Part shown: positions 1-42,553 of the stretch, piece by piece
Layout: every line of letters begins with the position of its first letter
Position numbering within the stretch: position 1 is the stretch's first letter
Assembly: GCA_958295785.1 (NCBI GenBank)
Contig: OY282377.1
Span: forward strand, 1-64,000
DNA: 64,000 nt
Origin: an uncultured Latescibacterota bacterium
GTDB taxonomy: Bacteria > Latescibacterota > UBA2968
Reading direction: 5' to 3'
Translations under genes and position numbers: made by a program
The notes under the pieces: generated by a model
The model's database searches: none
What the model saw: the letters and a program-made list of their open reading frames with translations, nothing else
Told to the model about the DNA's origin: nothing

Positions 1-768
1 TCTGTCTGGTATCGTTGAAATTGATGAAACCTACATCGGTGGCAAAGAAAAGAACAAACATAAATCCAAAAAGTTGAATGCGGGTCGCGGAACAGTAGGT
101 AAATCGGTTGCTTTTGGAATGCGGGAAAAAGGTGAAGATGGTGAGGCAATGGTGGTTCATGTACAGGACGCAAAAGGGGCAACATTACGCGATCAGATGT
201 TGAACCAGGTCTTGACGGGCGCAACTATTCATGCAGACGAGAACCGCGCATACGGCGCATTGAGGGATGATTACGAAGTGGAACAAATCAATCATTCTGC
301 CGACGAATATGAACGCGATGGTGTCCATACAAACTCCATTGAGAGTTTGTGGGCACTGGTTAAGCGTGTCTATATGGGTATTCATCACCACTGGTCAGAC
401 AAACACATGCAAAAGTACCTGAATGCTTGCGTGTTTCGCATCAATCGAAAAAAGGTTGATACCTTAAGTCGTGTTGATGAGATGTTGAATATGGCGATGG
501 GCGCACGGTTGACTTACAAGCAACTTATAGCCAGTGAGGCGGTTGCATGAACAACCTTTATGGCACAAGCGGGCGATATGGAAGTCAACGGGAAATGTTA
601 TCCACGCATGCAAAGGTTATCCGTTCCTGAAAGACGCGAAGGAAAACGTTTTGAAACGCCAGATGTTAGGGGCAGGCATGCCCAAAATCAGAGGGCGCTT
701 GCATTCAACACCAAAAACCCGTGATTACTTTAACAAGAAGATTTAGGGTTGGAAAGTATATAATTCCC
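1..768 (+). mobile_element. IS1595-family insertion sequence, right part
   Basis: The left end lies outside the window. The right end is at 768, where the outward sequence GTATATAATTCCC matches the last 13 bases of the terminal inverted repeat of the IS1595-type transposon at 21165-26307. The next 8 bases (769-776, TTTACTTA) are the probable target duplication, since IS1595-family elements usually duplicate 8 bp. A 27-codon ORF follows the transposase at 547-630; I cannot assign it. The insertion splits a PorV-like gene whose 3' end survives downstream. Confidence 0.8.
2..550 (+). CDS. IS1595-family (ISXO2-like) DDE transposase, 5' truncated by window edge
   Basis: The reading frame is open from base 2 and encodes the catalytic part of an ISXO2-like transposase. 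VEIDETYIGGKEK carries the first catalytic Asp, IHADENRAY the second Asp, and HTNSIESLWALVKR the third acidic position; the C-terminal helix region follows. The N-terminal zinc ribbon is off the window. It is paralogous to the transposase at 25245-26199: the two share the GGKE-N-KH-SKKL-AGRGTVGK block and the closing YQ/YK-DLIA-type end. No frameshift is seen in the visible part, so this copy could be active if its 5' part is intact. Confidence 0.9.
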   Translation: MSGIVEIDETYIGGKEKNKHKSKKLNAGRGTVGKSVAFGMREKGEDGEAMVVHVQDAKGATLRDQMLNQVLTGATIHADENRAYGALRDDYEVEQINHSADEYERDGVHTNSIESLWALVKRVYMGIHHHWSDKHMQKYLNACVFRINRKKVDTLSRVDEMLNMAMGARLTYKQLIASEAVA

Positions 769-1140: not shown

Positions 1141-2334
1141 ATGTTGAAAAGTATCAGTGTGATTGTCATGTCCTTTGCCGCGAGCGCGATGTGGGGCTGT
1201 GGCGGCGAGCACGCGACGCGGTCTCAGATGGATGAGGCACACGGGGATGTGGGACAACCGCTGAGTAAATTGGCCGTGCGGGGCCACATGTCGTCAGAGG
1301 CGGTGGTGGTCGTCACAATGTGGCAAAAAGACGCACCCGTAAGCGGTGCAAGGGTGGAATTTTCGCGTTCTATTGCGGGACGGGCGCCAGATTATCAATG
1401 GTCTGGAATGACCGATGACATGGGGCGGGCGCGCGTGGAGATCGCGGCGAAAAATGTGACGGGTTATTATCGGGCGCGTGCATCGCGGGACGGAATCGGA
1501 ATCGGATCGTGGTCGAGTATTCCGGTGAATGCCGGCTACATGGTGATGCTCAATTTGCCCATTGGGGGAAAGGCGCGTGTAACGAGTTCATCCATGCTCA
1601 CTGAATCTGCGGAATTTACGCGGGCCAATGTCGCAACTGGCGGCGCATTGTACGATAAGTGGTGGGTGGTTGCAGGCGTCAGCGAACCGAGCGATGAACA
1701 CCCCTTGTGGGCACAGCGTCCCGATAAGGCGTCTAATACACGCTCGGGCAGCACCACCCATCTGTGCAAGGAATGTCACGGCTGGGATTACAAAGGGGTG
1801 AACGGGGCTTACAGTACAGGTAGCCATCGAACCGGATTTCCCGGCATCAGGGGAACCACAAAATCGCCGCAAGAGATTTTTGACCTGCTCAAAAACGCGC
1901 ATGGATTTGGCGCGCTCGGATTGAGCGATACTGCCCTTTGGGATGCGACCAAGTTTGTCCTTGAAGGCGCGATTGACACGGATCAAATCATCGACCAAGC
2001 GGGCGCGTTCACGGGCAATCGCGCAGGTGGCAAAGCTCCTTATGATCGGTCATGTGTCTCCTGTCACGGCGCAGATGGGCTGACGAATCCGTTTGATGCG
2101 ATCCCGAATCAGCCGGGTTCTTCTCCCGGCTACGATCACTATCCGCAAGTGGTTGCCAACGATAATCCCTGGGAATTTCAACACAAAGTCCGCTTTGGGC
2201 AACCGGGCACCAATATGCCCCTCTTGGCTGCCGAGAACATAACCCCTACAGCACTGGCGAATTTAGGGGCTTATGTTCAATCGCTACCTGCATCGGTGGC
2301 CTCGCAGAAGGGCGTAGCCGAGGTGAAAAGGTAA
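1141..2334 (+). CDS. Dihaem c-type cytochrome lipoprotein
   Basis: A 397-residue secreted protein. The N-terminus has a hydrophobic signal and a lipobox-like AMWGC, so Cys20 is the likely lipidated residue. Residues about 45-150 look like a beta-rich Ig/carboxypeptidase-regulatory-type domain. Two CxxCH haem-binding motifs follow, CKECH at 209-213 and CVSCH at 305-309, each in its own cytochrome-c-like domain; the second is followed by a Met in NMPLL that could be the axial ligand. The role is probably periplasmic or surface electron transfer, substrate unknown. Its stop codon overlaps the ATG of the next gene by one base (TAATG), which suggests translational coupling to the first ATPase-nuclease copy. 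Confidence 0.8.
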   Translation: MLKSISVIVMSFAASAMWGCGGEHATRSQMDEAHGDVGQPLSKLAVRGHMSSEAVVVVTMWQKDAPVSGARVEFSRSIAGRAPDYQWSGMTDDMGRARVEIAAKNVTGYYRARASRDGIGIGSWSSIPVNAGYMVMLNLPIGGKARVTSSSMLTESAEFTRANVATGGALYDKWWVVAGVSEPSDEHPLWAQRPDKASNTRSGSTTHLCKECHGWDYKGVNGAYSTGSHRTGFPGIRGTTKSPQEIFDLLKNAHGFGALGLSDTALWDATKFVLEGAIDTDQIIDQAGAFTGNRAGGKAPYDRSCVSCHGADGLTNPFDAIPNQPGSSPGYDHYPQVVANDNPWEFQHKVRFGQPGTNMPLLAAENITPTALANLGAYVQSLPASVASQKGVAEVKR

Positions 2335-3941
2335 TGACAGTAGATTTGGCGAAAAAAAAAGAAGCCATTACGCGCTTCTTCAACACCAGTGGGCCGGTCG
2401 TGGCCGCGGACCACTACTGCATTCCCCCCTTGGAACGGCTCAACCTCGCCGAGATTCGCAGGCTCATCCGCGACAAACGCTATTTCGTCCTGCACGCGCC
2501 TCGGCAGACGGGCAAGACTTCTGCATTGTTAGCTCTGCGCGACCTGCTCAATGCCGAGGGGGCATACCGTTGCGTGTATGTCAATGTTGAAGGTGGACAG
2601 GCCGCACGCGAAGATGTGGAACAAGTCATGCGTACCGTTCTGGGCACCTTGGCGTCTCGGGCGCGTTCAATGGGCGACGAATTTCTGGACGAGGTTTGGC
2701 TCGACATCCTGATCAAGTACGGTCCCCACGCTGCACTACAGGAAGCGTTGACGCGCTGGGCTGGGGCCGATCTCAAGCCGCTGGTGTTGCTCATCGACGA
2801 GATAGACGCCTTGATCGGCGACTCGCTCCTGTCCGTGTTGCGTCAGTTGCGTGCCGGCTACGACATGCGTCCGGAGGGGTTTCCGCAAAGCGTGGTGCTG
2901 TGCGGTGTGCGCGATGTGCGCGATTACCGCATCCATTCGAGTTCAACCAACGCCATCATCGCCGGGGGCAGTCCGTTCAACATCAAAGCGCAATCGTTGC
3001 GTCTGGGAGACTTCTCGCAGGCCGAGGTGCGTGCTCTGCTCGGGCAACACACCGAAGAGACGGGTCAGGCATTCACGTTCGAGGCATTGGAGATGATCTG
3101 GACACAGACCCAAGGTCAGCCGTGGCTGGTCAACGCTTTGGCGGATCAAACCTGCTTCCGCGATGGGGCCGCAGATCGGCGCGATTCGGTCACTGCTTTT
3201 GCCATCATTGAGGCGAAAGAGCAACTCATCCTGCGCCGCGAAACGCATTTGGAACAGTTGACCGACAAACTCAAAGAGGAGCGCGTGCGGCGCATTGTCG
3301 AGCCCCTCTTGAGTGGGGGCGAGGAACGCCACTTCACGGATCGCGATTTGGAGTATGTGCGGGACCTCGGTCTCGTGGCTCAAGATCGTCCGCTCCGCAT
3401 CGCCAATCCGATCTACGCCGAAGTCGTGCCGCGCGAATTGACCTGGGTGATTCAAGAGGAGTTCGATCAGGAAACAGCCTGGTATGTCCATGCGGATGGC
3501 AGTTTGGATGTGGTCGAGTTGCTGACCGCGTTCCAAACGTTCTTCCGCGAACACTCAGAGCATTGGGTGAAGCGATTCGCGTATCGAGAGGCCGGGCCCC
3601 AGTTATTGCTACAGGCATTTCTCCAGCGCATCGTCAACAGCGGCGGACGCATTGAACGCGAGTATGGCCTGGGCAAGATGCGAACCGACCTGCTCATCGT
3701 CTGGCCGCAGGGAGAGCGGACGCGCAAATTCGTGATCGAGTGCAAAGTGCTTCACAGAAGCTTGGAGCAGACCCTCGCCGAGGGTTTGGAACAGACCGCC
3801 GAGTACATGGATCGCTGCGATGCAGAGGCGGGTCATCTGGTGGTCTTTGATCGGCGCGAGGGCAGGCGTTGGACGGACAAGGTGTTCCGGGATCGCCGAG
3901 CGTCGGGCAGTGATGTCGAGATCGACATTTGGGGGATGTGA
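2334..3941 (+). CDS. AAA ATPase / PD-(D/E)XK nuclease fusion, copy 1
   Basis: 535 residues. It differs from copies 2-5 by 12 extra N-terminal residues (MTVDLAKKKEAI, then TRFFNT in place of MRFFNT), because translation starts at an ATG overlapping the cytochrome stop. A run of nine A at about 2352-2360 sits in this extension and could slip. The core has a Walker A variant (APRQTGKTS), a Walker B (LVLLIDEID) and a C-terminal nuclease-like motif (RTDLLI, then VIECKV). N-terminal type TSGPVV; middle block type GDEFLDEVWLDIL. The family is recognisable as an AAA ATPase found in many paralogues in large environmental genomes; its biological role is unknown. Confidence 0.85.
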   Translation: MTVDLAKKKEAITRFFNTSGPVVAADHYCIPPLERLNLAEIRRLIRDKRYFVLHAPRQTGKTSALLALRDLLNAEGAYRCVYVNVEGGQAAREDVEQVMRTVLGTLASRARSMGDEFLDEVWLDILIKYGPHAALQEALTRWAGADLKPLVLLIDEIDALIGDSLLSVLRQLRAGYDMRPEGFPQSVVLCGVRDVRDYRIHSSSTNAIIAGGSPFNIKAQSLRLGDFSQAEVRALLGQHTEETGQAFTFEALEMIWTQTQGQPWLVNALADQTCFRDGAADRRDSVTAFAIIEAKEQLILRRETHLEQLTDKLKEERVRRIVEPLLSGGEERHFTDRDLEYVRDLGLVAQDRPLRIANPIYAEVVPRELTWVIQEEFDQETAWYVHADGSLDVVELLTAFQTFFREHSEHWVKRFAYREAGPQLLLQAFLQRIVNSGGRIEREYGLGKMRTDLLIVWPQGERTRKFVIECKVLHRSLEQTLAEGLEQTAEYMDRCDAEAGHLVVFDRREGRRWTDKVFRDRRASGSDVEIDIWGM

Positions 3942-4115
3942 GAAAGGCCGTTGTTCGGCTGTCCAACGCCCAAGCGGATAAAAGTCAGCGGTTAGTGCTC
4001 GGTCTCCCTCGCGGCCATCCGCCTTAGTGACCGACCCCGTGCCTGTCCTTTTACCTGGCGGTGGGGATGAACGGACAGGCCACTGACCACCGACCCCTGA
4101 CCCGGAGATTACACC

Positions 4116-5690
4116 ATGCGCTTCTTCAACACCAGTGGGCCGGTCGTAGCCGCGGACCACTACTGCATTCCCCCCTTGGAACGGCTCAACCTCGCCGAGA
4201 TTCGCAGGCTCATCCGCGACAAACGCTATTTCGTCCTGCACGCGCCTCGGCAGACGGGCAAGACTTCTGCATTGTTAGCTCTGCGCGACCTGCTCAATGC
4301 CGAGGGCATCTACCGTTGCGTGTACGTCAATGTTGAAGGTGGACAGGCCATGCGCGAAGATGTGGAACAAGTGACGCGCACCATTCTGGGCACCTTGGCG
4401 TCTCGGGCACGCTTGACCTTGGGCGATGAATTTTTGGGCAAAGTCTGGCCTGGCATTCTCGCTGAAATCGGACCGGGTGCTGCACTACAAGAAGCGTTGA
4501 CGCGCTGGGCCGAGGCGGCTCTGAAACCGCTGGTGCTGCTCATTGACGAGATAGACGCCTTGATCGGCGACTCGCTCCTATCCGTGTTGCGTCAGTTGCG
4601 TGCCGGCTACGACATGCGTCCGGAGGGGTTTCCGCAAAGCGTGGTGCTGTGTGGTGTGCGCGATGTGCGCGATTACCGCATCCATTCGAGTTCGACCAAC
4701 GCCATCATCGCCGGGGGCAGTCCGTTCAACATCAAAGCGCAATCGTTGCGCCTGGGCGACTTCTCGCAAGATGAGGTGCGTGCTCTGCTCGGGCAACACA
4801 CCGAAGAGACGGGTCAGGCATTCACGTCCGAGGCATTGGAGATGATCTGGACGCAGACCCAAGGTCAGCCGTGGCTGGTCAACGCTTTGGCGGATCAAAC
4901 CTGCTTCCGCGATGGGGCCGCAGATCGGCGCGATTCGGTCACTGCTTCTGCCATCATCGAGGCGAAAGAACAACTCATCCTGCGCCGCGAAACGCATTTG
5001 GAACAGTTGACCGACAAACTCAAAGAGGCGCGCGTGCGGCGCATTGTCGAGCCCCTCTTGAGCGGGGCCGAGGAACGCCACTTCACGGATCGCGATTTGG
5101 AGTATGTGCTCGATCTCGGTCTCGTGGTTCAAGATCGCCCTTTGCGTATCGCCAATCCGATCTACGCCGAAGTCGTGCCGCGCGAATTGACCTGGGTGGT
5201 CCAAGAGGAGTTCGATCAGGAAACAGCCTGGTATGTCCATGCGGATGGCAGTTTGGATGTGGTTGAGTTGTTGACCGCGTTCCAAACGTTCTTCCGCGAA
5301 CACTCCGAGCATTGGGTGAAACGATTCGCATATCGAGAAGCCGGGCCCCAGTTATTGTTGCAGGCATTTCTCCAGCGCATCGTGAACAGCGGCGGACGCA
5401 TTGAACGCGAGTATGGCCTGGGCAAGATGCGAACCGATCTCCTCATCGTCTGGCCGCAGGGGGAGCGGACGCGCAAATTCGTGATCGAGTGCAAAGTGCT
5501 TCACAGAAGCTTGGAGCAGACCCTCGCCGAGGGTTTGGAACAGACCGCCGAGTACATGGATCGTTGCGATGCAGAGGCGGGTCATCTGGTGGTCTTTGAT
5601 CGGCGCGAGGGCAGGCGTTGGACGGACAAGGTGTTTCGGGATCGCCGAGCGTCGGGCAGTGATGTCGAGATCGACATTTGGGGGATGTGA
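4116..5690 (+). CDS. AAA ATPase / PD-(D/E)XK nuclease fusion, copy 2
   Basis: 524 residues, used here as the reference copy. The P-loop is APRQTGKTS with Lys49; Walker B is LVLLIDEID with Asp144 and Glu145. A GVRDVRDYRIH segment follows that may act as a sensor region. A winged-helix-like middle section links to a C-terminal PD-(D/E)XK fold with Asp441 in RTDLLIVW and Glu458/Lys460 in VIECKV. N-terminal type TSGPVV; middle block GDEFLGKVWPGIL, shared only with copy 5. The start is set by CCGGAG upstream of the ATG. ATP-driven DNA or RNA processing is inferred from the fold, not known. Confidence 0.87.
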   Translation: MRFFNTSGPVVAADHYCIPPLERLNLAEIRRLIRDKRYFVLHAPRQTGKTSALLALRDLLNAEGIYRCVYVNVEGGQAMREDVEQVTRTILGTLASRARLTLGDEFLGKVWPGILAEIGPGAALQEALTRWAEAALKPLVLLIDEIDALIGDSLLSVLRQLRAGYDMRPEGFPQSVVLCGVRDVRDYRIHSSSTNAIIAGGSPFNIKAQSLRLGDFSQDEVRALLGQHTEETGQAFTSEALEMIWTQTQGQPWLVNALADQTCFRDGAADRRDSVTASAIIEAKEQLILRRETHLEQLTDKLKEARVRRIVEPLLSGAEERHFTDRDLEYVLDLGLVVQDRPLRIANPIYAEVVPRELTWVVQEEFDQETAWYVHADGSLDVVELLTAFQTFFREHSEHWVKRFAYREAGPQLLLQAFLQRIVNSGGRIEREYGLGKMRTDLLIVWPQGERTRKFVIECKVLHRSLEQTLAEGLEQTAEYMDRCDAEAGHLVVFDRREGRRWTDKVFRDRRASGSDVEIDIWGM

Positions 5691-5793
5691 GAAAGGCCGT
5701 TGTAAAAGTCAGCGGTTAGTGCCGTGCCTGTCCTTTTACCCTGCGGTGGAGATGGGCGGACAGGCCACTGACCCCTGACCCGGAGATTACACC

Positions 5794-7365
5794 ATGCGCT
5801 TCTTCAACACCAGTGGGCCGGTCGTGACTGCGGACCACTACTGCATTCCCCCCTTGGAACGGCTCAACCTCGCCGAGATTCTCAGGCTCATCCGCGACAA
5901 ACGCTATTTCGTCCTGCATGCGCCTCGGCAGACGGGCAAGACCTCGGCTCTGCTGGCTCTGCGCGACCTGCTCAACGCCGAGGGCATCTACCGTTGCGTG
6001 TACGTCAATGTTGAAGGTGGACAGGCCGCACGCGAAGATGTGGAACAAGTGACGCGCACCATTCTGGGCACCTTGGCGTCTCGGGCGCGTTCAATAGGCG
6101 ACGAATTTCTGGACGAGGTTTGGCTCGACATCCTGATCAAGTACGGTCCCCACGCTGCACTACAAGAAGCGTTGACGCGCTGGGCCGAGGCGGCTCTGAA
6201 ACCGCTGGTGCTGCTCATTGACGAGATAGACGCCTTGATCGGCGACTCGCTCCTATCCGTGTTGCGTCAGTTGCGTGCCGGCTACGACATGCGTCCGGAG
6301 GGGTTTCCGCAAAGCGTGGTGCTGTGCGGTGTGCGCGATGTGCGCGATTACCGCATCCATTCGAGTTCGACCAACGCCATAATCGCCGGGGGCAGTCCGT
6401 TCAACATTAAAGCGCAATCGTTGCGCCTGGGCGACTTCTCGCAAGATGAGGTGCGTGCTCTGCTCGGGCAACACACTGAAGAGACGGGTCAGGCATTCAC
6501 GTCCGAGGCATTGGAGATGATCTGGACACAGACCCAAGGTCAGCCGTGGCTGGTCAACGCTTTGGCGGATCAAACCTGCTTCCGCGATGGGGCCGCGGAT
6601 CGGCGCGATTCGGTCACTGTTTCTGCCATCATTGAGGCGAAAGAGCAACTCATCCTGCGCCGCGAAACGCATTTGGAGCAGTTGACCGACAAACTCAAAG
6701 AGGAGCGCGTGCGGCGCATTGTCGAGCCCCTCTTGAGCGGGGGCGAGGAACGCCATTTCACGGATCGCGATTTGGAGTATGTACGGGATCTCGGTCTCGT
6801 GGTTCAAGATCGTCCGCTCCGCATCGCCAATCCGATCTACGCCGAAGTCGTGCCGCGCGAATTGACCTGGGTGATTCAAGAGGAGTTCGATCAGGAAACA
6901 GCCTGGTATGTCCATTCGGATGGCAGTTTGGATGTGGTCGAGTTGCTGACCGCGTTCCAAACGTTCTTCCGCGAACACTCAGAGCATTGGGTGAAGCGAT
7001 TCGCGTATCGAGAGGCCGGGCCCCAGTTATTGCTACAGGCATTTCTCCAGCGCATCGTCAACAGCGGCGGACGCATTGAACGCGAGTATGGCCTGGGCAA
7101 GATGCGAACCGATCTGCTCATCGTCTGGCCGCAGGGGGAGCGGACGCGCAAATTCGTGATCGAGTGCAAAGTGCTTCACAGAAGCTTGGAGCAGACCCTC
7201 GCCGAGGGTTTGGAACAGACCGCCGAGTACATGGATCGCTGCGATGCAGAGGCGGGTCATCTGGTGGTCTTTGATCGGCGCGAGGGCAGGCGTTGGGCGG
7301 ATAAGGTGTTCCGGGATCGCCGAGCGTCGGGCAGTGATGTCGAGATCGATATTTGGGGGATGTGA
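5794..7365 (+). CDS. AAA ATPase / PD-(D/E)XK nuclease fusion, copy 3
   Basis: 523 residues. The N-terminal block is as in copies 1 and 2 (TSGPVVTADHY) and the middle block (GDEFLDEVWLDIL) as in copies 1 and 4, so it combines segments found in different neighbours. P-loop, Walker B and nuclease Asp/Glu/Lys are all kept. The spacer before it is the shortest (103 bp), having lost about 70 bp that the other spacers keep. No stop or frameshift is present, so selection may still act on each copy. Confidence 0.86.
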   Translation: MRFFNTSGPVVTADHYCIPPLERLNLAEILRLIRDKRYFVLHAPRQTGKTSALLALRDLLNAEGIYRCVYVNVEGGQAAREDVEQVTRTILGTLASRARSIGDEFLDEVWLDILIKYGPHAALQEALTRWAEAALKPLVLLIDEIDALIGDSLLSVLRQLRAGYDMRPEGFPQSVVLCGVRDVRDYRIHSSSTNAIIAGGSPFNIKAQSLRLGDFSQDEVRALLGQHTEETGQAFTSEALEMIWTQTQGQPWLVNALADQTCFRDGAADRRDSVTVSAIIEAKEQLILRRETHLEQLTDKLKEERVRRIVEPLLSGGEERHFTDRDLEYVRDLGLVVQDRPLRIANPIYAEVVPRELTWVIQEEFDQETAWYVHSDGSLDVVELLTAFQTFFREHSEHWVKRFAYREAGPQLLLQAFLQRIVNSGGRIEREYGLGKMRTDLLIVWPQGERTRKFVIECKVLHRSLEQTLAEGLEQTAEYMDRCDAEAGHLVVFDRREGRRWADKVFRDRRASGSDVEIDIWGM

Positions 7366-7532
7366 GAAAGGCCGTTGTTCGGCTGTCCAACGCCCAAGCG
7401 GATAAAAGTCAGCGGTTAGTGCTCGGTCTCCCTCGCGGCCATCTGCCTTAGTGACCGACCCCGTGCCTGTCCTTTTACCTGGCGGTGGGGATGAATGGAC
7501 AGGCCACCGACCACTGACCCGGAGATTATACC

Positions 7533-9104
7533 ATGCGCTTCTTCAACACTGCCGGTCCCATCAAGCCGGGCAAACACTACTGCATCCCGCCGTTAGAACG
7601 CTTGGACATAGACGATGTACTCGCCCTGATCCGGGACGAGAAGTACTTCGTCCTGCATGCGCCTCGGCAAACGGGCAAGACCTCTGCATTGTTAGCTCTG
7701 CGCGACCTGCTCAACGCCGAGGGCATCTACCGTTGCGTGTACGTCAATGTTGAAGGTGGACAGGCCGCACGCGAAGATGTGGAACAAGTGACGCGCACCA
7801 TTCTGGGCACCTTGGCGTCTCGGGCGCGTTCAATAGGCGACGAATTTCTGGACGAGGTTTGGCTCGACATCCTGATCAAGTACGGTCCCCACGCTGCACT
7901 ACAAGAAGCGTTGACGCGCTGGGCCGAGGCGGCTCTGAAACCGCTGGTGCTACTCATTGACGAAATTGACGCCTTGATCGGCGACTCGCTCCTGTCCGTG
8001 TTGCGTCAGTTGCGTGCCGGCTACGACATGCGTCCGGAGGGGTTTCCGCAAAGCGTGGTGCTGTGCGGTGTGCGCGATGTGCGCGATGACCGAATCTATT
8101 CGAGTTCAACCAACGCCATCATCGCCGGGGGCAGTCCGTTCAACATCAAAGCGCAATCGCTGCGCCTGGGCGACTTCTCGCAAGATGAGGTGCGTGCTCT
8201 GCTCGGGCAACACACCGAAGAGACGGGTCAGGTGTTCACGTCTGAGGCATTGGAGATGATCTGGACACAGACCCAAGGTCAGCCGTGGCTGGTCAACGCT
8301 TTGGCAGATCAAACCTGCTTCCGCGATAGGGCCGCAGATCGATGCGATTCGGTCACTGCTTCTGCCATCATTGAGGCGAAAGAGCAACTCATCCTGCGCC
8401 GCGAAACGCATTTGGAACAGTTGACCGACAAACTCAAAGAGGAGCGCGTGCAACGTGTCGTTGAACCGCTGTTGAGTGGATCCGAAAAAAGCACGTTCTC
8501 CACCCGAGACCTTGAATACGTCCGCGACTTGGGCTTGATCGCCCAAGATGACCCGCTCCGCATCGCCAATCCCATTTATGCGGAAATCGTGCCGCGCGAA
8601 CTGACCTACGCCACGCAGTCCGGCCTTATTGAGGAAACGGCTTGGTATGTCCATTCGGATGGCAGTTTGGATGTGGTCGAGTTGCTGACCGCATTCCAGA
8701 CCTTCTTCCGCGAACACTCCGAGCATTGGGTGAAGCGATTCGCGTATCGAGAAGCCGGGCCCCAGTTATTGCTACAGGCATTTCTCCAGCGCATCGTCAA
8801 CAGCGGCGGACGCATTGAACGCGAGTATGGCCTGGGCAAGATGCGAACCGATCTCCTCATCGTCTGGCCGCAGGGCGAACAGACGCGCAAATTCGTGATC
8901 GAGTGCAAAGTGCTTCACAGAAGCTTGGAACAGACCCTCGCCGAGGGTTTGGAACAGACCGCCGAGTACATGGATCGTTGCGATGCAGAGGCGGGTCATC
9001 TGGTGGTCTTTGATCGGCGCGAGGGCAGGCGTTGGACGGACAAGGTGTTTCGGGATCGCCGAGCGTCGGGCAGTGATGTCGAGATCGACATTTGGGGGAT
9101 GTGA
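7533..9104 (+). CDS. AAA ATPase / PD-(D/E)XK nuclease fusion, copy 4 (most divergent)
   Basis: 523 residues. It has the alternative N-terminus (TAGPIKPGKHY, then LDIDDVLALIRDEKYF) shared with copy 5. A divergent block around residues 305-350 (SGSEKSTFSTRDLEYV, and TYATQSGLIEETAW in place of TWVIQEEFDQETAW) is unique to it. Flanking sequence outside these blocks is almost identical to the other copies, so the differences look imported by recombination with an unseen paralogue. Catalytic motifs are intact. Confidence 0.86.
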   Translation: MRFFNTAGPIKPGKHYCIPPLERLDIDDVLALIRDEKYFVLHAPRQTGKTSALLALRDLLNAEGIYRCVYVNVEGGQAAREDVEQVTRTILGTLASRARSIGDEFLDEVWLDILIKYGPHAALQEALTRWAEAALKPLVLLIDEIDALIGDSLLSVLRQLRAGYDMRPEGFPQSVVLCGVRDVRDDRIYSSSTNAIIAGGSPFNIKAQSLRLGDFSQDEVRALLGQHTEETGQVFTSEALEMIWTQTQGQPWLVNALADQTCFRDRAADRCDSVTASAIIEAKEQLILRRETHLEQLTDKLKEERVQRVVEPLLSGSEKSTFSTRDLEYVRDLGLIAQDDPLRIANPIYAEIVPRELTYATQSGLIEETAWYVHSDGSLDVVELLTAFQTFFREHSEHWVKRFAYREAGPQLLLQAFLQRIVNSGGRIEREYGLGKMRTDLLIVWPQGEQTRKFVIECKVLHRSLEQTLAEGLEQTAEYMDRCDAEAGHLVVFDRREGRRWTDKVFRDRRASGSDVEIDIWGM

Positions 9105-9278
9105 GAAAGGCCGTTGTTCGGCTGTCCAACGCCCAAGCGGATAAAAGTCAGCGGTTAGTGCTCGGTCTCCCTCGCGGCCATCCGCCTTAGTGACCGACCC
9201 CGTGCCTGTCCTTTTACCTGGCGGTGGGGATGAACGGACAGGCCACTGACCACCGACCCCTGACCCGGAGATTACACC

Positions 9279-10853
9279 ATGCGCTTCTTCAACACTGCCG
9301 GTCCCATCAAGCCGGACAAACACTACTGCATCCCGCCGTTAGAACGCTTGGACATAGACGATGTACTCGCCCTGATCCGGGACGAGAAGTACTTCGTCCT
9401 GCACGCGCCTCGGCAGACGGGCAAGACCTCGGCTCTGCTGGCCCTGCGCGACCTGCTCAATGCCGAGGGCATCTACCGTTGCGTGTACGTCAATGTTGAA
9501 GGTGGACAGGCCATGCGCGAAGATGTGGAACAAGTGACGCGCACCATTCTGGGCACCTTGGCGTCTCGGGCACGCTTGACCTTGGGCGATGAATTTTTGG
9601 GCAAAGTCTGGCCTGGCATTCTCGCTGAAATCGGGCCGGGTGCTGCACTACAGGAAGCATTGACGCGCTGGGCCGAGGCGGCTCTGAAACCGCTGGTGCT
9701 GCTCATTGACGAGATAGACGCCTTGATCGGCGACTCGCTCCTATCCGTGTTGCGTCAGTTGCGTGCCGGCTACGACATGCGTCCGGAGGGGTTTCCGCAA
9801 AGCGTGGTGCTGTGTGGTGTGCGCGATGTGCGCGATTACCGCATCCATTCGAGTTCGGCCAACGCCATCATCGCCGGGGGCAGTCCGTTCAACATCAAAG
9901 CGCAATCGCTGCGCCTGGGAGATTTTTCGCAAGATGAGGTGCGTGCTCTGCTCGGGCAACACACCGAAGAGACGGGTCAGGCATTCACGTCCGAGGCATT
10001 GGAGATGATCTGGACACAGACCCAAGGTCAGCCGTGGCTGGTCAACGCTTTGGCGGATCAAACCTGTTTCCGCGATGGGGCCGCGGATCGGCGCGATTCG
10101 GTCACTGCTTCTGCCATCATTGAGGCGAAAGAACAACTCATCCTGCGCCGCGAAACGCATTTGGAACAGTTGACCGACAAACTCAAAGAGGAGCGCGTGC
10201 GGCGCATTGTCGAGCCCCTCTTGAGTGGGGGCGAGGAACGCCACTTCACGGATCGCGATTTGGAGTATGTGCGGGATCTCGGTCTCGTGGCTCAAGATCG
10301 TCCGCTCCGCATCGCCAATCCGATCTACGCCGAAGTCGTGCCGCGCGAATTGACCTTGGTGGTCCAAGAGGAGTTCGATCAGGAAACGGCTTGGTATGTC
10401 CATGCGGATGGCAGTTTGGATGTGGTCGAGTTGCTGACCGCGTTCCAAACGTTCTTCCGCGAACACTCCGAGCATTGGGTGAAGCGATTCGCGTATCGAG
10501 AAGCCGGGCCGCAGTTATTGCTACAGGCATTTCTCCAGCGCATCGTGAACAGCGGCGGGCGCATCGAACGCGAGTATGGCCTGGGTAAGATGCGAACCGA
10601 CCTGCTCATCGTCTGGCCGCAGGGCGAACAGACGCGCAAATTCGTGATCGAGTGCAAAGTGCTTCACAGAAGCTTGGAGCAGACCCTCGCCGAGGGTTTG
10701 GAACAGACCGCCGAGTACATGGATCGTTGCGATGCAGAGGCGGGTCATCTGGTGGTCTTTGATCGGCGCGAAGGCCGGCGTTGGGCGGACAAGGTGTTTC
10801 GGGATCGCCGAGCGTCGGGCAGTGATGTCGAGATCGACATTTGGGGGATGTGA
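9279..10853 (+). CDS. AAA ATPase / PD-(D/E)XK nuclease fusion, copy 5
   Basis: 524 residues. The N-terminus is of the copy 4 type (TAGPIKPDKHY) but the middle block is of the copy 2 type (GDEFLGKVWPGIL) and the C-terminal region is of the common type. It is therefore a third combination of the same blocks. P-loop, Walker B and ECK nuclease motif are kept. It is the last gene of the array; after the stop the conserved spacer breaks off within about 15 bp. Confidence 0.86.
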   Translation: MRFFNTAGPIKPDKHYCIPPLERLDIDDVLALIRDEKYFVLHAPRQTGKTSALLALRDLLNAEGIYRCVYVNVEGGQAMREDVEQVTRTILGTLASRARLTLGDEFLGKVWPGILAEIGPGAALQEALTRWAEAALKPLVLLIDEIDALIGDSLLSVLRQLRAGYDMRPEGFPQSVVLCGVRDVRDYRIHSSSANAIIAGGSPFNIKAQSLRLGDFSQDEVRALLGQHTEETGQAFTSEALEMIWTQTQGQPWLVNALADQTCFRDGAADRRDSVTASAIIEAKEQLILRRETHLEQLTDKLKEERVRRIVEPLLSGGEERHFTDRDLEYVRDLGLVAQDRPLRIANPIYAEVVPRELTLVVQEEFDQETAWYVHADGSLDVVELLTAFQTFFREHSEHWVKRFAYREAGPQLLLQAFLQRIVNSGGRIEREYGLGKMRTDLLIVWPQGEQTRKFVIECKVLHRSLEQTLAEGLEQTAEYMDRCDAEAGHLVVFDRREGRRWADKVFRDRRASGSDVEIDIWGM

Positions 10854-10945: not shown

Positions 10946-11195
10946 ACTGATGTTACGCACAGATTAGCACTTGAGTTGCTCGTCTCAAGCGTTTGGTTCT
11001 ATACCCTCGTTTGTTGCCTTTGATGCCTTCGGCCCTACGCTACACGTAGGCCACTTTTTTTTGGCAAAAAAAATAAGCGAGCGGGGACCAACTGCGATAG
11101 CAGTTCAATCGCTTTTCTGGTAGCACGCCACGCGCACCATTCTGGGCACCTTGGCGTCTCGGGCACGCTTGACCTTGGGCGCTGTGCGTAATGTT
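10946..11195. repeat. Dispersed noncoding repeat, copy A (MITE-like)
   Basis: The sequence starting ACTGATGTTACGCAC and containing TTGCTCGTCTCAAGCGTTTGG recurs at 20779-21157 (copy B), 46598-47016 (copy C) and 61158-61207 (copy D); A and D share the left start, B and C have a different left part. In this copy the left end TGTTACGCACA is mirrored by TGTGCGTAATG at 11183-11193, giving short inverted ends. The interior holds a gene fragment (11130-11181) from the ATPase array. No coding potential is seen. This repeat, the terminator and unassigned sequence make up 10854-11416. Confidence 0.6.
11130..11181 (+). pseudogene. 52-bp fragment of the ATPase-nuclease gene
   Basis: These 52 bases are identical to codons in copies 2 and 5 of the array, for example 4374-4425, which encode the RTILGTLASRARLTLG stretch. 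Both sides are unrelated to that gene. It is either the last trace of a sixth copy or a piece captured by the surrounding MITE-like repeat. Confidence 0.8.
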
Positions 11196-13833: not shown

Positions 13834-13860
13834 GGGCGGGCACAGGGGCACCGCCCCTAC
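13834..13860. repeat. Short GC-rich palindromic repeat
   Basis: GGGCGGGCACAGGGGCACCG then CCCCTAC; same dispersed motif as at 12255-12318. It lies in the gap upstream of the sulfatase. A TAACCACTGACCACC motif, another recurrent short sequence, lies at about 13969-13983. Confidence 0.6.
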
Positions 13861-37734: not shown

Positions 37735-38013
37735 TTGGGCAAGTGCCGACGCGATAGAAGTCTGTCTGCGACCCTAAAAAAAAAAGGTTGTCATAATGAC
37801 GCAATGGGGTTATATTGATTTAAGCTATCGAACATTAGGCGCGTTACCTGATCCAATTCTGGGTCGCAAATTTGTAACGGCCTGTCTCGAAAGCAATTAT
37901 CCGAACACCATTTTAGTCGTCAGCGCGATTTTGAGGGGCATCTGCCTGTCAAAGTGGCCTGAGTCGCACAAGGGCCTCATACGAACTGCGGCCCAATAAG
38001 TTAGAAAGGAGGC
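37735..38013 (+). promoter_or_regulatory. CRISPR leader region
   Basis: The 279 bp between the CARF gene and the first repeat, with an A10 run near 37776-37785. Array polarity (repeats ending GAAAC, cas operon upstream) places the leader here. A 67-codon ORF (37796-37999) crosses it without a good ribosome site or recognisable family; I regard it as doubtful. TTAGAAAGGAGG ends 2 bp before the first repeat. Confidence 0.6.
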
Positions 38014-41000
38014 ATTTGGAAGTACTACCCGCCTACTGGGGTATTGAAACTCAACTTCTCGCGCCACAGCGCGGAGATACAACGAGTAAATTTGGAAGTA
38101 CTACCCGCCTACTGGGGTATTGAAACCTCTCATATCAGCTAACAACCAACCAATCGAAATTAAGATTTGGAAGTACTACCCGCCTACTGGGGTATTGAAA
38201 CGTAACCGCAACGCCGTTGCCCGTGCATTACAGCAAGTATTTGGAAGTACTACCCGCCTACTGGGGTATTGAAACATCAATAACAGGGGTAATATGCGCC
38301 CGTTCATACTGTTTCATTTGGAAGTACTACCCGCCTACTGGGGTATTGAAACTTGTATGCCCAATGCTTCTCCAAGCATTTTCTGCGACATTTGGAAGTA
38401 CTACCCGCCTACTGGGGTATTGAAACTTTCTGATAGCGTTTGACCAGGAAGTTGTGCCTGTAAAATTTGGAAGTACTACCCGCCTACTGGGGTATTGAAA
38501 CTTGCTACGTGTGATGCTACGGCTTTGTAATTCATAATGTATTTGGAAGTACTACCCGCCTACTGGGGTATTGAAACCTTCACGCTCAAACACGGACTCG
38601 GAGACATCCACATACTATTTGGAAGTACTACCCGCCTACTGGGGTATTGAAACCTCGCAATCTTCATGTCGCGTTTCGCGCCGAAAGGCAACATTTGGAA
38701 GTACTACCCGCCTACTGGGGTATTGAAACGTAGTCACCACAAGAGACCTAACAACAGTCTTGCTTGTGTCGATTTGGAAGTACTACCCGCCTACTGGGGT
38801 ATTGAAACTCCAAACAAACGTCTGACCCGCAGTAATCTCACACCCTCCATTTGGAAGTACTACCCGCCTACTGGGGTATTGAAACCCCAAGATGTTCTTG
38901 TGATCATGCCCATAGCAGAGCCAAATATTTGGAAGTACTACCCGCCTACTGGGGTATTGAAACATACTCTTGATTGTTGTAGAAGTCGACACCATCAGCC
39001 CAAATTTGGAAGTACTACCCGCCTACTGGGGTATTGAAACATCCACTGCAACGCGCGCCCCATGACGTATTGAATCCCGGTGTTTTTATTTGGAAGTACT
39101 ACCCGCCTACTGGGGTATTGAAACCCGAATTGTCGCCTCATCCCCATCGAAATAGGGGGAATTGGTGAATTTGGAAGTACTACCCGCCTACTGGGGTATT
39201 GAAACTATAATTATGAAGTGCCTCATCTAGCGCCGGATCGGGCGAATTTGGAAGTACTACCCGCCTACTGGGGTATTGAAACGTGGTGGTGTGGGGTGGC
39301 TATTCGGGCACTTTCTCGAGAATTTGGAAGTACTACCCGCCTACTGGGGTATTGAAACGATCCAAAATTGACCTCCTCGCCTAAAACCATCTCCATATTT
39401 GGAAGTACTACCCGCCTACTGGGGTATTGAAACATACACCGACGGACGAAAAGCTTTGTAATGCTTTTATTTGGAAGTACTACCCGCCTACTGGGGTATT
39501 GAAACTTGCTTTATTTGCCACTTCAATTCTCGCTTCCTCTGTTCATTTGGAAGTACTACCCGCCTACTGGGGTATTGAAACTTGAAGTCGGGCAACCGAC
39601 ACGTTCACCTGTTGCCGTTTCATTTGGAAGTACTACCCGCCTACTGGGGTATTGAAACTTTCGGCTTTTTAGATAAGTTTATTTGGGTTGATCCCCCATT
39701 TGGAAGTACTACCCGCCTACTGGGGTATTGAAACTTAAGCTCATCATCCCCGACAACCCGCCACTCTTTTTCACCCATTTGGAAGTACTACCCGCCTACT
39801 GGGGTATTGAAACATACTCGCCACCATGGGCAATGGTCACAATGTACGCTTGCATCTATTTGGAAGTACTACCCGCCTACTGGGGTATTGAAACTGTCAG
39901 GCACCGCCCGGATGAAAAACACCAGTGGTGTTATTTGGAAGTACTACCCGCCTACTGGGGTATTGAAACTTATCCACCACCGCTTCCTCTGCCGCCGCCA
40001 AATCTTCAATTTGGAAGTACTACCCGCCTACTGGGGTATTGAAACGCCTCTTCTGCGGTTTTCCAGTCCTTTTTCTCGATAGATTTGGAAGTACTACCCG
40101 CCTACTGGGGTATTGAAACTGACATAAAATTCGGTTGATCAGTTCTGAATAACTGATATTTGGAAGTACTACCCGCCTACTGGGGTATTGAAACTTTTTT
40201 CGTGAAGATCCGTAGGCCATTCTTGGCGGCCTGATTTGGAAGTACTACCCGCCTACTGGGGTATTGAAACATCTTGCGCTGAGCGTCTTCGTATTGCCCG
40301 TCGAAAAAATTTGGAAGTACTACCCGCCTACTGGGGTATTGAAACGCAACTTCTCCTCATTGAAAACTTTGGCACGCTCACCAATTTGGAAGTACTACCC
40401 GCCTACTGGGGTATTGAAACCAAACGCATCAAGCCCCTCGCGCGCATGCTGGGTACGCAAATTTGGAAGTACTACCCGCCTACTGGGGTATTGAAACTTT
40501 TCCCGTCGGGATATTTGTTGATCAAATCTTGGAGACATTTGGAAGTACTACCCGCCTACTGGGGTATTGAAACTATTGATAAGGTTTGTAACCGTCTCAA
40601 TACCAAATTCAAATTTGGAAGTACTACCCGCCTACTGGGGTATTGAAACACATTGTGCTACTCCTATGGATGGTGTGAACTACGGTGATTTGGAAGTACT
40701 ACCCGCCTACTGGGGTATTGAAACTTAAGGAAGAACATCAGGACCAAAGATTTTTACAGCATACAATTTGGAAGTACTACCCGCCTACTGGGGTATTGAA
40801 ACAGGAGGCGGCGATGAGCAAGGCCGAGCGCGAAATTTGGAAGTACTACCCGCCTACTGGGGTATTGAAACTGTCTTGAAGCAACGGCATTGGCTTCTTC
40901 CTGTTTCAATTTGGAAGTACTACCCGCCTACTGGGGTATTGAAACGGATTTTCTCGTCCGGCTGCACGGGCAGAATTCGCTCCCAGATTTGGAAGTACTA

Positions 41001-42553
41001 CCCGCCTACTGGGGTATTGAAACTAAGTCTCCCTTTTTCAATGGGATGCTCACGTAATTGATATTTGGAAGTACTACCCGCCTACTGGGGTATTGAAACT
41101 CATGCGCGTAGTCTCGCGCCTCGACCTGCACAGATTTCAATTTGGAAGTACTACCCGCCTACTGGGGTATTGAAACGGGCGAGACGCTGAGTAAGGTCAA
41201 AGCGCAGACTGACAATTTGGAAGTACTACCCGCCTACTGGGGTATTGAAACATGAGAGAGCTTATAGGTTGCCGCGGAGCAGTCGATGTCAATTTGGAAG
41301 TACTACCCGCCTACTGGGGTATTGAAACTCATAACGCGCCGCAACACACGCAATCGCGGAATCAAAAATTTGGAAGTACTACCCGCCTACTGGGGTATTG
41401 AAACGTAGGTGTCCAATGCGGATTTCAACAGCAGGGTAGCCCTAATTTGGAAGTACTACCCGCCTACTGGGGTATTGAAACGTAGTCTCGTCGGTAAGCA
41501 TTCACGAAATGTCGTCTTTTGATTTGGAAGTACTACCCGCCTACTGGGGTATTGAAACAAATATTTCTTTCTCTTTCATGCTCAAAAACCGCTCCGATTT
41601 GGAAGTACTACCCGCCTACTGGGGTATTGAAACCAATGGGAGACTGGCGACAGCGAACGCAATCTTCGCGTTGATTTGGAAGTACTACCCGCCTACTGGG
41701 GTATTGAAACAAGTAACTGATCGCTCGGTCAATTGAATCCATAGCCATCTATTTGGAAGTACTACCCGCCTACTGGGGTATTGAAACGGTGTCAAGTGGG
41801 GGTTTCATTCGTTTTCGTTGCACGAATTTGGAAGTACTACCCGCCTACTGGGGTATTGAAACACCGCGTGTCTGGAGACCTTAATCATCATTTTTCATGT
41901 ATTTGGAAGTACTACCCGCCTACTGGGGTATTGAAACAACTCTGTGTAGTATTTCTTCACCGTATCAAAATCCGCGGCATTTGGAAGTACTACCCGCCTA
42001 CTGGGGTATTGAAACTTCCTTGGTGGTATCTCGTTGTATGCGATACCGGGAAAATTTGGAAGTACTACCCGCCTACTGGGGTATTGAAACAGCATCTGAT
42101 CGTCGGCATCTGCGATGGCATCCGCGGCGGCATTTGGAAGTACTACCCGCCTACTGGGGTATTGAAACTTCTGTCTCGTCAACAACTTTCAACAAGTGTT
42201 CCGTTTATTTGGAAGTACTACCCGCCTACTGGGGTATTGAAACAAGGTGGGGGTCAGGTCGATCAGGGTTTTGGCCTCGGATTTGGAAGTACTACCCGCC
42301 TACTGGGGTATTGAAACAGACCGTTACATCCGTCTCGAAAATCTCCTCGTAAAGCAATTTGGAAGTACTACCCGCCTACTGGGGTATTGAAACCAAAAAC
42401 ATAACGGCCATCGTTCGGCAGTGCCGAACGCCACTGTCATTTGGAAGTACTACCCGCCTACTGGGGTATTGAAACTTCACCAGCCATACATCTGCGAAAG
42501 GCACCAGGCACAGTACATTTGGAAGTACTACCCGCCTACTGGGGTATTGAAAC
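38014..42553 (+). CRISPR. CRISPR array, 60 identical repeats and 59 spacers
   Basis: The repeat is 37 nt, starting ATTTGGAAGTAC and ending GGGGTATTGAAAC; I counted 60 copies with no sequence change seen. Spacers are mostly 35-44 nt and none is visibly duplicated. A short hairpin (TACCC/GGGTA) sits in the 3' half, leaving the 8-nt handle ATTGAAAC typical of type III crRNAs, so transcription is on the + strand. A 61st identical repeat lies at 47143-47179, cut off by a 4.5-kb insertion. Confidence 0.99.

Follow-up and report, generated by a model that had tools for sequence, protein, structure and literature searches.

Mosaic genes for predicted ATPase-nucleases, arrayed in tandem in a marine Latescibacterota bacterium, look more like a jumping gene than an antigen-variation system

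Organization of the five-gene array

The window analyzed here, a stretch of 64,000 bp from a marine Latescibacterota bacterium whose genome is assembled as a single 5.66-Mb contig, carries five genes (T1–T5) that are located one after another on the same strand and together fill positions 2334 to 10853 (Table 1). All five encode proteins of 523–535 amino acids without internal stop codons and show pairwise nucleotide identities of 88–96%, with the differences concentrated in three sharp blocks. The first-pass annotation had described these genes as tandem block mosaics of each other with intact catalytic residues, and both statements held: the Walker A (RQTGKT) and Walker B (LLIDEID) motifs, as well as the PD-(D/E)XK motif RTD...ECK followed by QTAEYM, occur once in each of the five copies. 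Intact catalytic residues are not a property of the whole family, since copy a5380 carries a D440N substitution and Walker A of the copy in genome G041 a K-to-N change. Further, copy a1248 is frameshifted.

T1 has ACG (position 2370) where the family usually has ATG, and its start codon, an ATG located 12 codons further upstream, overlaps the stop codon of the preceding gene. The spacers between the array copies are near-identical, which is a sign of tandem duplication. The left flank of the array was non-syntenic in the congeners looked at. Scattered pieces similar to the stray fragment downstream of T5 were also present in other genomes carrying the family.

Elsewhere in the window, a ~37-bp repeat (ATTTGGAAGTACTACCCGCCTACTGGGGTATTGAAAC) recurs in tandem with unique spacers of ~35–40 bp; these arrays, which have long ORFs on both sides, appear to make up one large CRISPR-like locus divided into several parts. 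The 27-bp sequence GGGCGGGCACAGGGGCACCGCCCCTAC is an abundant interspersed repeat, found exact or near-exact at dozens of congener positions.

Table 1. Features of the window and coordinates of the array copies and their variable blocks
Feature	Position	Strand	Description
T1	2334–3941	+	AAA+/PD-(D/E)XK ORF; N block S, middle block D
T2	4116–5690	+	N block S, middle block K
T3	5794–7365	+	N block S, middle block D
T4	7533–9104	+	N block A, middle block D, divergent C-proximal block
T5	9279–10853	+	N block A, middle block K
Spacer, 174 bp	3942–4115	+	Near-identical at 7366–7532, at 9105–9278 and in U1–U2; shortened at 5691–5793
N block, aa 1–50			S in T1–T3, A in T4–T5
N block, T4 vs. T3	7550–7694	+	46 nucleotide differences
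Middle block, aa ~83–128			D in T1, T3 and T4; K in T2 and T5
Middle block, K allele, T2 vs. T3	4350–4478	+	Between Walker A and Walker B
C-proximal block, aa ~306–378	8452–8702	+	Divergent in T4 only; after the ATPase core, predicted winged-helix region
Stray 55-bp piece of K-type middle block	11127–11181	+	Intergenic, downstream of T5
27-bp repeat	13834–13860
CRISPR-like repeat arrays	38013–42245

Domain composition and predicted fold

Pfam searches placed AAA_22 and AAA_35 above the cut-off in the first half of T1–T5. The last part of the proteins matched PF08011 (PDDEXK_9) at 16.9–18.2 bits, below the cut-off of 25.5, and contains the conserved residues D440, E457, K459 and Q475; the identity of the nuclease domain rests on these residues together with the weak PDDEXK_9 match. 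Among 69 family members, at E ≤ 0.01, AAA_22 was detected in all 69, PDDEXK_9 in 20 and PF09820 in 12. In T1–T5, PF09820 scored no more than 13.1 bits (cut-off 26.1) and PF01637 no more than 20.9 bits (reached by T3; cut-off 33.2), PF04754 was not matched in the Pfam search, and a sequence search of the PDB yielded chance-level matches only.

A structure model built from 69 sequences (pLDDT 82, pTM 0.72) replaced a weak 27-sequence model (pTM 0.41) and was used for fold comparisons. For residues 1–355, the best match was 2QEN (Z 16.0, 318 residues aligned), followed by 2FNA (Z 15.3), with plant NLRs, Cdc6/Orc, MuB (Z 12.8) and TnsC (Z 12.4) as further neighbours. As modelled, this region has the fold of an archaeal ATPase/STAND/Orc/MuB/TnsC-type AAA+ module plus a winged helix, after which a C-terminal PD-(D/E)XK domain is predicted. 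Pfam matches, conserved motifs, structure model and fold match are all in line with the earlier assignment of the proteins as AAA-type ATPases joined to a PD-(D/E)XK nuclease.

Recombination between copies and selection on the variable blocks

In windows of 75 nt, most pairs of copies differed at 0–8 sites outside the blocks and at 18–29 sites within them, and the allele pattern agreed with the shuffling proposed in the first-pass annotation, with S or A alleles at the N-terminus, D or K alleles in the middle and a C-proximal block particular to T4. A second pair of copies, U1–U2, is located at 242781–246101 and has the same spacer as the array. For T1–T5 together with U1–U2, the PHI statistic was 0.309 vs. 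0.542 ± 0.011 upon permutation (0 of 1000 permutations; about 20 SD below), and for all 17 intact copies it was likewise far outside permutation. Window differences, block alleles and PHI concur with the repeated recombination that had been suggested. Recombination between copies is certain, and the overwriting of segments of one copy by those of another has given rise to the block mosaics.

Related segments were found in other copies of the genome. The nearest paralogue of the T4 C-proximal block is a4207 (79%), and the middle block of U2 is of a third type, nearest to that of a5380. The clearest case of a swapped-in segment is copy a2958, which matches T4, T5, U1 and U2 at 94–96% identity in their A-type N blocks and at 69% or less elsewhere, with 56–68% identity to T4 beyond the N block.

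Pairs of block alleles showed dS values of 0.8–2.5 and dN/dS ratios of 0.09–0.21. Because of these values, the alleles are ancient, copied-in paralogue segments and not fast-evolving surfaces; they represent long-separated paralogue sequence introduced by gene conversion and kept under purifying constraint. The proposal that recombination goes along with selection for antigen-like or target-recognition variation was not supported by the per-block ratios; with none above 1, diversifying selection was rejected.

Two observations concern chromosomal arrangement around the copies. The 5′ flank of L196 resembles that of one L191 copy and its 3′ flank resembles that of the L204 copy; these flanks are a sign of possible chromosomal rearrangement through exchange between copies. 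In related gammaproteobacterial genomes (L186/L192), apparently the same tandem cluster comprises three full copies vs. two, and at the two-copy locus a ~40-bp 3′ remnant of an additional copy comes after one of the two.

Copy number and distribution across bacteria

The host genome contains 18 copies, namely T1–T5, U1–U2, ten intact singles and one frameshifted single, so that 17 are full-length; most are solitary and far apart, between ordinary genes. Copy number was also checked in sister genomes, where each of ten congeners had 1–9 matches, some of which were fragments. In another family of the same class, two genomes had 17 and 19 matches, with most other relatives having none.

A scan of species genomes returned at least 551 relatives. 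Among the matches listed were Latescibacterota, Gammaproteobacteria, Acidobacteria, Gemmatimonadota, Spirochaetes, Entotheonella, Chloroflexi, a heliobacterium and others, and tandem copies were observed in several phyla, in independent assemblies. Phyla are intermixed in the tree, in which a copy from G046 forms a pair with one from Entotheonella and a gammaproteobacterial clade includes a copy from Vicinamibacterales. Neither IMG/VR nor the phage set contained any relative, and a phage origin was rejected on this basis. Distant relatives (24–43% identity) are present on some plasmids; in Pseudanabaena sp. ABRG5-3 and P. galeata, ~40% identical relatives were found on each of four plasmids (H4, H6–H12).

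Dispersed copies occupy sites that are empty in congeners

The ten congeners were searched with the flanking sequences of four dispersed copies. All four sites (a5301, a1691, a5203 and a5380) were unoccupied in every informative congener, a pattern shared with classical insertion sequences. The cleanest insert of those tested was that of a5301, where the chromate-transporter gene is separated from bioB by 11–14 bp in eight of eight informative congeners; in the host genome, 1624 bp (L057:5520–7143), consisting of a ribosome-binding site, the ORF and 35 bp, replace these 11–14 bp after a stop codon. At a1691, the gap was 12–68 bp in all ten congeners, and the host interval includes an extra second gene that is located elsewhere in relatives. 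The a5203 site measured 100–295 bp in ten of ten congeners in the main placement, a second G010 contig being split differently, vs. about 2.4 kb in the host genome, while a5380 measured 0–814 bp in the seven congeners with both flanks on one contig vs. 1906 bp in the host.

The neighbours of dispersed copies are mostly ordinary transport or metabolic genes, encoding MacB-type, MFS and chromate transporters, a TonB receptor, a TPP enzyme, biotin synthase and a sulfatase. Defence-like neighbours were a TIR-TPR gene adjoining a943 and a Schlafen AlbA_2 gene adjoining one G046 copy. With ORFs called by length only, the upstream neighbour was usually co-oriented and sometimes close. An interspersed repeat of 300–500 bp, MITE-like and with further occurrences elsewhere in the host genome, lies within 600 bp of three dispersed copies (L049:4777–5160, L052:5499–5907 and L055:6826–7308).

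Boundaries, derivatives and ends of the unit

Several pairs of copies with 84–94% nucleotide identity, one of them cross-phylum (L159/L162), matched over a unit of ~1.6 kb and nothing beyond, with some pairs from related genomes having flanks in common too. In three gammaproteobacterial genomes, dispersed copies that are full or near-full number about 16, 18 and 26 (hand-counted from tables), and the part common to these copies is only a ~1.63-kb unit composed of a leader of about 25 bp, the ORF and a few bp. Internal-deletion derivatives joining the 5′ end to the 3′ end were also detected in gammaproteobacterial genomes, along with scattered 5′, 3′ and internal fragments.

The gammaproteobacterial leader (GCGCGGCAAGTGCCATAATCGGCCC) directly precedes the start codon and is conserved at otherwise unrelated sites. 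Its CATAAT resembles a -10 box and, if used as such, would make the message nearly leaderless. Leaders differ between branches, and that of the host branch carries a ribosome-binding site. The 3′ end of the unit lies at the stop codon or a few bases beyond, with a short conserved tail. Synonymous positions vary without constraint at either end of the ORF, so the ends are not recognised inside the gene. Neighbouring copies are arranged head to tail, as in L148, where three units are connected by 4-bp TAGGGCCATG junctions.

Unlike classical insertion sequences, the 133 copies analyzed were devoid of terminal inverted repeats (inverted match of 5.95 bp vs. 5.78 bp in the control). None had terminal hairpins, and direct repeats showed no overall excess (6.00 vs. 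5.78 bp), a comparison compatible with target duplications that are a few bp long and vary in offset. The direct-repeat signal seen at -30/+10 originated from a few related gammaproteobacterial sublineages. In the absence of inverted repeats, a consistent target-site duplication or hairpins, there is no standard transposition signature. Further, no partner gene was found in the unit, nor within the a5301 insert. The G034 copy in L080 (~4756–6351) is flanked by a 19-bp direct repeat (GGCTTTGGCTCGACCGGGG), possibly a pre-existing one.

Discussion

The array is probably a cluster of tandem copies of a mobile unit that is dispersed, IS-like and made up of a single gene; the family resembles a new kind of jumping gene more than it does an antigen-variation system. 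Gene-sized units occupy new intergenic positions, left vacant in sister species, and they have spread across phyla. In one genome they reach 16–26 copies, full or near-full, and they decay into deletion derivatives and fragments; the protein is under purifying constraint. Against this reading stand the lack of a standard transposition signature, the free variation of synonymous positions at the ORF ends, the absence of relatives from IMG/VR and the phage set, and the fact that no transposition event was observed; purifying selection would also fit a host-beneficial gene.

The unit would consist of a leader (about 14–25 bp), one ORF encoding an AAA+ ATPase, a winged helix and a PD-(D/E)XK nuclease, and a short 3′ tail, with the leader providing a ribosome-binding site in the host branch and, among gammaproteobacterial copies, a promoter box of -10-like sequence. 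In the mechanism that we propose, the AAA+ protein would bind DNA and, switched by ATP, let the nuclease domain nick or cut; repair of the break or nick would place copies of the unit at new sites and carry its sequence over from one paralogue to another, and unequal crossover would enlarge the tandem arrays. We infer that the encoded enzyme moves the unit. More tentatively, the family may represent a new, minimal class of mobile element, present in many phyla, in which an AAA+/PD-(D/E)XK gene with a built-in leader drives its own copying and paralogue conversion without terminal repeats or a known transposase.

Purifying selection would also be found in a defence- or toxin-like family that benefits its host, spreads by horizontal transfer and is then duplicated, with recombination shuffling sensor and effector segments. 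The STAND-like ATPase plus nuclease architecture and the TIR-TPR and Schlafen AlbA_2 neighbours fit such a family, and Rpn, another multicopy PD-(D/E)XK family, is anti-phage (PMC10327210). However, PADLOC models gave no family at E ≤ 1 for T1, T4 or T5, most copies are single and lie between ordinary genes rather than in a defence-island setting, their dispersal resembles that of a mobile element more than that of a defence locus, fragments and deletion derivatives are IS-like, and dN/dS of the variable blocks is low. We regard this explanation as unlikely.

Passive expansion would mean that an ordinary gene is dispersed through ordinary duplication, natural transformation and illegitimate recombination, with selection paring the flanks back to the gene itself; this seems doubtful to us as well. 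It would account for the lack of inverted repeats, target-site duplications and hairpins, and the usual co-orientation of the upstream neighbour is expected if expressible copies alone survive. DUF1703 families likewise expand and recombine (PMC6387759). Pairs that are ~90% identical already have no common flanks, however, and are rather young for trimming to have taken place in every case, and three gammaproteobacteria contain 16–26 copies per genome.

It is less probable still that the gene is non-autonomous and travels as a passenger, mobilised in trans by a different transposase or a reverse transcriptase that recognises short leader or tail sequences. The ~25-bp leader conserved in gammaproteobacterial copies, the short conserved tail and the retention of both ends in internal-deletion derivatives agree with such recognition; the a5301 insert lacks a partner gene, the leader is not the same between branches, and neither target-site duplications nor inverted repeats were found. 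Finally, a false expansion due to an assembly artefact is unlikely to the point of being hardly credible, because the genome is single-contig, the copies are 4–12% different and other, independent genomes contain tandem copies too.

Among described cases, the DUF1703 family (PF09820 AAA-ATPase_like plus PF08011 PDDEXK_9) comes nearest; it is expanded and recombining in Cardinium cCpun (PMC6387759), and its fold has been assigned in PMC1913061. Both families combine an AAA+ module with a following C-terminal PD-(D/E)XK domain, and in both, paralogues have multiplied, been transferred horizontally and undergone intragenic recombination with one another. They differ in that the ATPase described here matches AAA_22/AAA_35 and PF09820 weakly (12 of 69 members), PDDEXK_9 is under the cut-off in the array copies, and the passages of PMC6387759 and PMC1913061 considered here do not mention discrete gene-sized units with empty sites. 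Rpn/YhgA-like (PF04754) nucleases, also multicopy PD-(D/E)XK proteins, have been linked to recombination or phage defence (PMC5350276, PMC10327210); in contrast to them, the present family does not match PF04754 and possesses a large AAA+ module.

The archaeal ATPases of PF01637 provide the best fold match for residues 1–355 (2QEN and 2FNA; ATPase plus winged helix), but the sequence score is under the curated cut-off, the hosts here are mostly bacterial and the proteins end in a nuclease domain. Tn7-type TnsA/TnsC and phage Mu MuB exemplify an AAA+ DNA-binding ATPase working with a restriction-like nuclease, and free-standing homing endonuclease genes are gene-sized intergenic insertions that spread by cutting and repair. 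The likeness of the unit to these systems would be one of logic only: it has no DDE transposase or terminal inverted repeats, no target-site duplication was found, and it occupies many unrelated target sites instead of one allelic site.

Multicopy AAA-nuclease genes in many bacteria are annotated as hypothetical or AAA-like proteins. Open-licence papers yielded no account of the gene in the role of a mobile unit, which is weak evidence of absence. Empty sites, sharp boundaries and deletion derivatives turn the single-gene mobile unit into a testable claim, namely that the gene itself is what moves. If the enzyme drives this movement, it would represent a transposition or homing route arising from the ATPase group of MuB, TnsC and the STAND sensors, and would link mobile elements with defence ATPases.
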